A stretch of DNA of 28,050 bases from a virus: positions 1 to 28,050 of the IMG/VR virus record IMGVR_UViG_3300024520_000400; one strand, given 5' to 3'. Within the stretch, counting starts at the first letter, position 1. Each line of letters begins with the position of its first letter. Positions 17,377 to 18,918 of the stretch are shown here, piece by piece. A program made the translations under genes and the position numbers. The notes under the pieces were generated by a model. It ran no database searches. It had not been told where the DNA came from and saw only the letters and a program-made list of their open reading frames with translations.

Positions 17377-17521
17377 GATAGACATTCAAACCATGACGGC
17401 ACAAACCCCGTTGTGTGAGTCTGTGACACCACAATTGACACGTTGTAGTGTGGTCAATCGATAGTTCGCGGCTATAGTGGTGTATCTCTACATAGTGTGG
17501 AGTATAACAAGGGGAAATAAA

Positions 17522-17767
17522 ATGCATCCATTAATGACACAGATTCACGGTATGTCATCGGGAACCTTTGCCGGCTACATATCGGACGCATGGGGTGACG
17601 TGGAAGATTACGAAACAATCGACGCCATTTACAATAACTTTGTATCATGGGCGTATCTCAACTCTGATATGTACCTGACAAGACAGAAGGCATGGGAAGT
17701 TTTCTCGACGTCTTTCTCTTTTCAGAATGTCACCGGAAACCATCCTGAACTATTTGGGTCGATCTAA
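17522..17767 (+). CDS. Unknown small protein
   Basis: This 81-residue protein starts MHPLMTQIHGMSSGTFAGY after AAGGGGAAAT. It is acidic and rich in aromatic residues. Its C-terminus, ETIDAIYNNFVSWAYLNSDMYL..., looks helical. It is the first clear gene of the short rightward unit. No family is recognised. Confidence 0.6.
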   Translation: MHPLMTQIHGMSSGTFAGYISDAWGDVEDYETIDAIYNNFVSWAYLNSDMYLTRQKAWEVFSTSFSFQNVTGNHPELFGSI

Positions 17768-17780
17768 CAAGGGGTTTATT

Positions 17781-17969
17781 ATGTATACAATTACCGTGTA
17801 TCACGCAGACGGAGCGCTTGAGGTGGGAAAAGTGGAGACTTTGAGTTGTGCTCATGATTTTGTCACAGCCAAGGCAACTGATTGGAGAAAAAAAAACTGG
17901 TTGCCTGCTATGTTCACAATCCGCACCAGTGACAGGTTAGTATCTACCCGGACGTTTTATGCAACCTAA
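17781..17969 (+). CDS. Unknown small protein
   Basis: This 62-residue protein starts MYTITVYHADGALEVGKVETL after ACAAGGGG, 13 nt downstream of the previous stop. It has alternating beta-like segments and a basic turn (DWRKKNW). Its stop codon lies 2 nt before a hammerhead ribozyme, so its message would end in a ribozyme-made 3' end. Confidence 0.6.
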   Translation: MYTITVYHADGALEVGKVETLSCAHDFVTAKATDWRKKNWLPAMFTIRTSDRLVSTRTFYAT

Positions 17970-17971
17970 CC

Positions 17972-18021
17972 GACGAAACCGCCTTCGGGCGGTCGGTGTC
18001 TAGCTAACATCCTGACGAGTC
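17972..18021 (+). ncRNA. Type II hammerhead ribozyme
   Basis: All core strings are present in type II order: GAC (stem II), GAAA (17975-17978), stem III CCGCC-TTCG-GGCGG, cleavage triplet GTC (17992-17994), stem I GGTGT (17995-17999) with ACATC (18007-18011), CTGACGA (18012-18018), and GTC closing stem II. A15.1-U16.1 and C15.2-G16.2 pair correctly. Cleavage is expected between 17994 and 17995. Stem II is only 3 bp. It separates two genes of one rightward message, followed by a GCCGG/CCGGC hairpin at 18024-18040. Confidence 0.85.
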
Positions 18022-18060
18022 ATGCCGGATCGCTACCGGCTAATAACAAGGGGATTTATC

Positions 18061-18303
18061 ATGGATACGTATATGCCGACAATCGAAACAAAGCTTTTAC
18101 CGGCCACAGGCACGCGCGGTTACAGAGTAAAAGCACAGATCATTGACGGCCAGTCGGTAACAATCGACCACAATCACGGGTTGACCACAGAGCAAAACCA
18201 TAGGGCAGCAGCAGAGAATCTCGTTAAGAAGTTGTCATGGAGTCCAGTCCTTGAGGCCGGCGGACATACCAAAACCGGCATGGTCTTTATACTGGACGTC
18301 TAA
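18061..18303 (+). CDS. Unknown small phage protein
   Basis: This 80-residue protein starts MDTYMPTIETKLLPATGTRGYRV after ACAAGGGG. Strands TGTRGYRVKAQIID and SVTIDHNHGL precede a helix NHRAAAENLVKKLSW and the ending GGHTKTGMVFILDV. This arrangement is familiar from small uncharacterised phage proteins. It is the first gene of the 3' ribozyme product, whose message would begin with a 5'-hydroxyl end. Confidence 0.65.
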   Translation: MDTYMPTIETKLLPATGTRGYRVKAQIIDGQSVTIDHNHGLTTEQNHRAAAENLVKKLSWSPVLEAGGHTKTGMVFILDV

Positions 18304-18345: not shown

Positions 18346-18918
18346 ATGAACGTTCTAATAGCTTGTGAATATTCAGGTACAGTGAGAGATGCCTTTATCA
18401 GTAAAGGACACGACGCCGTATCTTGTGACCTGATAGACACGGAGTCTATCGGTCCTCACTTTATACTGGACGCCTTGACACTCATAGAACATCCGGAATA
18501 TAACGATTGCACACATTGGGATATGTTGATTGCTTTTCCGCCATGCACAGATTTAGCGGTCAGTGGTGCAAGATGGTTTCCGGAAAAGAGAAAAGACGGA
18601 AGGCAACAGGCATCCATTTCGTTCTTTATGGCACTGGCTACCGCTGACATCCCAAAGATCGCTATAGAGAATCCGATAGGCATCATGTCAACGCAATACC
18701 GAAAGCCTGACCAGATCGTCCAGCCTTGGCAATATGGTCACGGGGAAACAAAAGCCACATGCCTATGGCTCAAAGGGCTTCCAAAGTTGCAACCTACCGA
18801 TATCGTCGAAGGCCGAGAACAGAGAGTATGGAAAATGCCACCGTCAGAGCACAGAGCCAAAGAAAGAGCACGTTCATTTCAAGGTATCGCCATTGCGATG
18901 GCGAACCAGTGGGGTTAA
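18346..18918 (+). CDS. Cytosine-C5 DNA methyltransferase-like protein
   Basis: This 190-residue protein starts MNVLIACEYSGTVRDAF after GGAGGGG. It has the motif I-like LIACEYSG, the FPPCTDLAVSGARWF segment with the PPC catalytic motif, and IENPIG in place of the ENV motif, ending with helices. It is shorter than typical Dcm enzymes and lacks an obvious target-recognition domain. It may methylate phage DNA to avoid restriction, or be a divergent member with another role. Confidence 0.75.
   Translation: MNVLIACEYSGTVRDAFISKGHDAVSCDLIDTESIGPHFILDALTLIEHPEYNDCTHWDMLIAFPPCTDLAVSGARWFPEKRKDGRQQASISFFMALATADIPKIAIENPIGIMSTQYRKPDQIVQPWQYGHGETKATCLWLKGLPKLQPTDIVEGREQRVWKMPPSEHRAKERARSFQGIAIAMANQWG

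Follow-up and report, generated by a model that had tools for sequence, protein, structure and literature searches.

Natural type II hammerhead ribozymes, some with only one or two base pairs in stem II, were described by Perreault et al. (2011; PMC3088659) in clusters that flank prophage genes. Cleavage was demonstrated in vitro for three of these clusters and in E. coli for one, and their proposed role was to divide transcripts into messages the length of an operon or a single gene (PMC3088659). Moreover, enrichment of bacterial hammerheads in the vicinity of Mu-like phage genes and of other ribozymes has been noted (PMC10085705). HDV-like theta ribozymes are likewise self-cleaving ribozymes in phage genomes, those of gut phages, but they belong to a different ribozyme class and occur with suppressor tRNAs (PMC10879173). 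The stretch analyzed here (the window, a 28,050-base IMG/VR record) has the gene set of a tailed phage; among its products are a large terminase subunit and a Prim-Pol type primase. Within a gene run of the order A-B-hammerhead-C-D on its + strand, starting at 17522, lies an element that shares with the published type II hammerheads (PMC3088659; RF02276) the core, the permutation, the short stem II and the intergenic site in phage gene runs, and that differs from them in its score below the Rfam gathering threshold, its weak stem I, its occurrence as a single copy and the separate hairpin that follows it (Table 1).

Table 1. Coordinates of the genes, the hammerhead and its parts in the window.
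Feature	Position	Strand	Remarks
ORF A, 81 aa	17522..17767	+	First gene of the run; RBS AACAAGGGG at 17506-17514
ORF B, 62 aa	17781..17969	+	TAA stop at 17967-17969, 2 nt 5' of the ribozyme
Type II hammerhead ribozyme, complete	17972..18021	+	Core and stems read directly; Rfam; R1
Stem II 5' strand GAC	17972..17974	+	Pairs with GUC 18019-18021; flanking C-A mismatch 17971/18022
Core GAA (G12 A13 A14)	17975..17977	+	Next base A17978 is A15.1
Stem III hairpin ACCGCC-UUCG-GGCGGU	17978..17993	+	A17978-C17983 with G17988-U17993; includes A15.1-U16.1
C17, cleavage-site nucleotide	17994	+	Predicted cut on 3' side, from motif position
Stem I hairpin	17995..18011	+	GGUGU 17995-17999 with ACAUC 18007-18011; 5 bp, one G-U
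Catalytic core CUGACGA, N7 = C	18012..18018	+	
Stem II 3' strand GUC	18019..18021	+	
Separate hairpin GCCGG-AUCGCUA-CCGGC	18024..18040	+	Between ribozyme and RBS; predicted folds
ORF C RBS AACAAGGGG	18045..18053	+	Same motif as upstream of ORFs A and B
ORF C, 80 aa, phrog_3199, function unknown	18061..18303	+	First gene of the predicted downstream cleavage product
ORF D, 190 aa, phrog_757 DNA methyltransferase-like	18346..18918	+	Second gene of the predicted downstream product

The 91 bases between ORFs B and C contain the hammerhead and, after it, the GCCGG/CCGGC hairpin. PHROG and Pfam searches with ORF A gave no match, and neither a PHROG search nor a search for relatives returned anything for ORF B. 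The motif AACAAGGGG recurs on the + strand at 17506, 17766, 18045 and 25567, four copies as compared to 0.2 expected. An in-frame AUG immediately 3' of stem II would lengthen ORF C by 13 codons (18022-18060), across the hairpin; the start at 18061 is favoured over it by the ribosome-binding motif.

The full element reads, in type II order, GAC-GAA-ACCGCC-UUCG-GGCGGU-C-GGUGU-CUAGCUA-ACAUC-CUGACGA-GUC. All features of the hammerhead core are present, namely CUGANGA, GAA, the A15.1-U16.1 pair, an H at position 17 and the C11.1-G10.1 pair; helices of 3, 6 and 5 bp (stems II, III and I) surround the core, and the type II permutation is evident in stems I and III being closed by loops and stem II being open. 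The UUCG-capped stem III and 5-bp stem I of the original prediction can be read directly from the sequence, as can the start of the element 2 nt past a stop codon. Stem I has a C-A mismatch at the place of the sixth pair of the relatives described below, and its loop begins with a U that is nearly invariant among them. A loop I/tail pseudoknot of at least 4 bp is a majority feature of the published set (PMC3088659), whereas a pseudoknot of that kind was not seen in the window copy: by eye, only UAGC and GCUA could pair, a chance-sized match with a loop about 11 nt downstream, and nothing adjoining stem II was found. A kissing contact between this loop I (UAGC) and the hairpin loop (GCUA) at 18024-18040 was rejected, its 4 bp being expected by chance. 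Among the viral relatives, longer loops I and possible loop I/tail pseudoknots of the published type (PMC3088659) were noted in L126, L127, L153, L157, L168 and L327, for example GCCGC with GCGGC in L327.

The motif is far from what chance would supply. A strict finder demanding all core bases and at least 2, 4 and 4 bp in stems II, III and I gave two matches, neither as good as the element, when run on 30 Mb generated by a first-order Markov chain from the dinucleotide statistics of the window, corresponding to 0.004 such motifs expected per window on both strands, and none in the 733 kb of other viral sequence from 80 loci with methylase relatives. A covariance model, R1, built from 78 other viral hammerheads with the window excluded, gave 17972-18021 a score of 44.9 bits (E 1.7e-14), as compared to 10 bits for the runner-up in the window; under this model, chance pattern matches fell at about 20-29 bits, and most true members exceeded 40. 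The thermodynamic z-score of the element (-0.82) is not informative, since the ribozyme core is unpaired. It could be argued that the element is a protective hairpin whose core was matched by chance, since the best predicted fold of 17966-18026 is stem III extended by ACCGA/UCGGU. This reading is very improbable given the chance expectation, the R1 score and a position that fits the family rule set out below; a terminator version of such a hairpin would moreover have to do without a U-run. The identity of 17972-18021 as a complete hammerhead and its assignment to type II are thus confirmed, and the element adds one member, ordinary in kind, to a published class.

The search with the Rfam type II model that had been suggested as a check went less well: Hammerhead_II (RF02276) gave 19.8 bits, under the gathering threshold of 37, with an E value of 0.0024 for the record. 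The same model also misses most viral copies, finding at gathering two hammerheads as compared to about 44 by R1 in five loci (L220, L216, L230, L199 and L084). Judged from its printed alignment, the Rfam structure seems to place stem II off by one position.

Relatives were sought in viral contigs with a pattern specifying the core and a GAC/GUC stem II and leaving stem I unconstrained. At least 119 stretches were found, as compared to four with a control in which two core bases were swapped. Nearly all of 159 inspected pattern matches had at least 5 bp in stem I and at least 5 bp in stem III; because the pattern did not ask for stem I, these matches can be taken as real hammerheads. In a 78-row alignment, 98% of stem cells were paired and 13 of 16 pairs showed changes on both sides, but these figures lean to the structure since the rows were picked for having stems, so that the 159 inspected matches are the unbiased test. 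Altogether, viral contigs hold hundreds of type II hammerheads, up to 12 of them in one 7.5-kb locus. A similar but stricter pattern found 39 stretches in 257 Gb of bacterial genomes, about 28 of which score as true members, so that the class is mainly viral. The viral set modelled by R1 (L083-L248) shares with the window copy the GAC/GUC stem II, GAAAC...GUC, a stem I loop starting with U, a site just past a stop codon and a next RBS a few tens of nucleotides downstream. Unlike the window copy, its members mostly have a 4-bp stem II and a stem I of 6-8 bp, and many of its loci are multi-copy.

Placement was analyzed in 285 distinct viral copies with random positions for comparison. A start between -2 and +3 nt from the stop codon of the upstream ORF was observed for 61% of the copies and 4.5% of random positions, and one between -4 and +10 nt for 80% and 11%, respectively. 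The position of the window copy, which had been called unusual, is in fact the rule, since most family members start near stop codons, and its site at +2 nt from a stop on the same strand fits the placement of the family. UAG is a frequent stop in the relatives, its G serving as the first base of stem II, and the next RBS-bearing start codon lies at a median of 23 nt downstream of family hammerheads. Copies lie on one strand in 57 of 58 multi-copy loci; the 7.5-kb locus L220 has 12 R1 matches, 10 of which start between -1 and +3 nt from an ORF end. At least seven hammerheads on one strand, often after nearly every gene, were noted in L220, L212, L216, L230, L233, L199, L164 and L248.

In viroids and retrozymes, hammerheads serve a circular-RNA or ligation function. 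A retrozyme-like element of this kind is, for the window, the least credible of the readings considered: a scan for any hammerhead type found no other copy, type I and type III being absent, so that there is no flanking pair to release a circle. Furthermore, spliced or circular products of phage-type clusters have been sought and none were found (PMC3088659).

When a common function of the genes downstream of family hammerheads was sought among 89 proteins, no PHROG matched more than three, and the genes were diverse. The original prediction placed the cut between two genes and assigned the new 5' end to the message of the methylase-like gene. A cut after 17994, between two genes on the same strand, agrees with the position of the motif and is retained as a prediction, while the message would open with ORF C (phrog_3199) and the methylase-like ORF D would come second. 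A link to the methylase was rejected because only one of 80 loci with relatives of ORF D has a hammerhead, about 5.5 kb away. A link to phrog_3199 was likewise rejected, as no hammerhead was present in the region examined of three phages that carry an ORF C relative; in one phage with a near methylase, a hammerhead was also absent in the region examined.

Despite its sound core, the window copy is a weak representative of its family. By R1 score it ranks at about the 15th percentile among 337 viral matches, it has C-A at the relatives' fourth stem II pair as well as at their sixth stem I pair, and the gap between its hammerhead fold and its best predicted fold exceeds that of 95-98% of 290 relatives. 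In longer context, a rival fold, with stem I and core bases paired to the RBS and start region of ORF C, is favoured by about 9 kcal/mol. Cotranscriptional folding could avoid this rival fold, as the whole ribozyme is transcribed before the RBS. This weak scaffold makes the speed of cleavage uncertain, and the copy may be slow or decaying, derived from a working ancestor and with little or no cleavage left in the cell. The C-A-flanked 3-bp stem II, the C-A and G-U in stem I, a folding gap in the worst 2-4% of the relatives and the Rfam score under gathering are in line with such decay. Every core base is intact, however, Rfam likewise misses most viral copies in the five loci above, and a 3-bp stem II, described as unusual in the original prediction, lies between the 4 bp of the viral majority and the 1-2 bp of published active hammerheads (PMC3088659). 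On balance, we regard decay as unlikely, though deserving of serious consideration. Close relatives of the phage region, in which the fate of the element could be compared, were sought by terminase, ORF B, ORF C and DNA, and none were found.

The rival fold and the stop codon also bear on a switch linked to translation, in which ribosomes at the TAA would cover stem II and make cleavage depend on translation of ORF B, or in which the cut would alter access to the RBS of ORF C. In its favour, the stop codon of most relatives lies within a few nucleotides of stem II, and the rival fold ties up stem I and core bases with the RBS and start region of ORF C. Close gene packing alone would yield the same spacing, however, and sequestration of the RBS by the cut leader was rejected since its pairing is no stronger than in shuffled leaders, 54% of which were as low or lower. 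This explanation is rather improbable.

Taken together, the element is probably a genuine type II hammerhead in a short phage operon transcript that cuts itself after C17994 and splits the A-B message from the C-D message. Cleavage by this copy, and message processing and end protection as its purpose, are deduced from the motif and its setting. Following this, we propose that the RNA element folds as it is made and self-cleaves after C17994, parting the A-B message from the C-D message. The stem III hairpin, bearing a 2',3'-cyclic phosphate, would then terminate the upstream message about 25 nt past its stop codon, and the stem I hairpin, bearing a 5'-hydroxyl, would open the downstream message. 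Stem II, the sole link between the two halves and only 3-4 bp long, would come apart after the cut. Neither 3' exonucleases nor 5'-phosphate-dependent RNase E act well on hairpin ends that carry a cyclic phosphate or a 5'-hydroxyl, and the hairpin ends proposed here should slow both kinds of enzyme. Both new ends would be hairpins because the stems I and III of the type II layout, which lie beside the cut, are closed; with both ends capped in this way, the layout appears suited to separating messages, and with protected ends the two messages could decay independently.

A further feature was observed in a subset of the relatives. In 30 distinct copies, stem II is followed directly by the tail CNUCAG, a sequence able to pair with the core CUGANG. 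The variable tail base was A in 23 of 23 copies with U at N7 and G in 7 of 7 copies with C at N7 (Fisher p 5e-7, with kinship ignored). Copies with N7 = C occur in L174, L214, L216, L219, L226 and L233 and those with N7 = U in about 20 other loci, and both forms occur inside L174 and inside L216. Outside the CNTCAG subset, no covariation of N7 with the tail was detected (p 0.86). Because N7 is the free position of the core, the pattern points to refolding of the used core into a hairpin following cleavage; alternatively, the CRUCAG tail could turn the ribozyme off. The window copy has no CRUCAG tail. A literature search found no report of this covariation, which is not proof of novelty.

Phage type II hammerheads might then act as gene-by-gene punctuation, each gene having one joined to its stop codon and the messages being capped by hairpins at both ends, with the covarying CRUCAG tail of the subset refolding the spent core as a second hairpin, which would make release irreversible; the window copy would be a minimal, weak and tail-less example. 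We advance this broader view tentatively and consider it somewhat doubtful. Estimates of how common the class is in phages are too low, given that the Rfam model misses nearly all type II copies in the loci tested. Moreover, the link to stop codons, together with up to a dozen copies per locus, makes the role of bacterial hammerheads testable by RNA-seq of infected cells.
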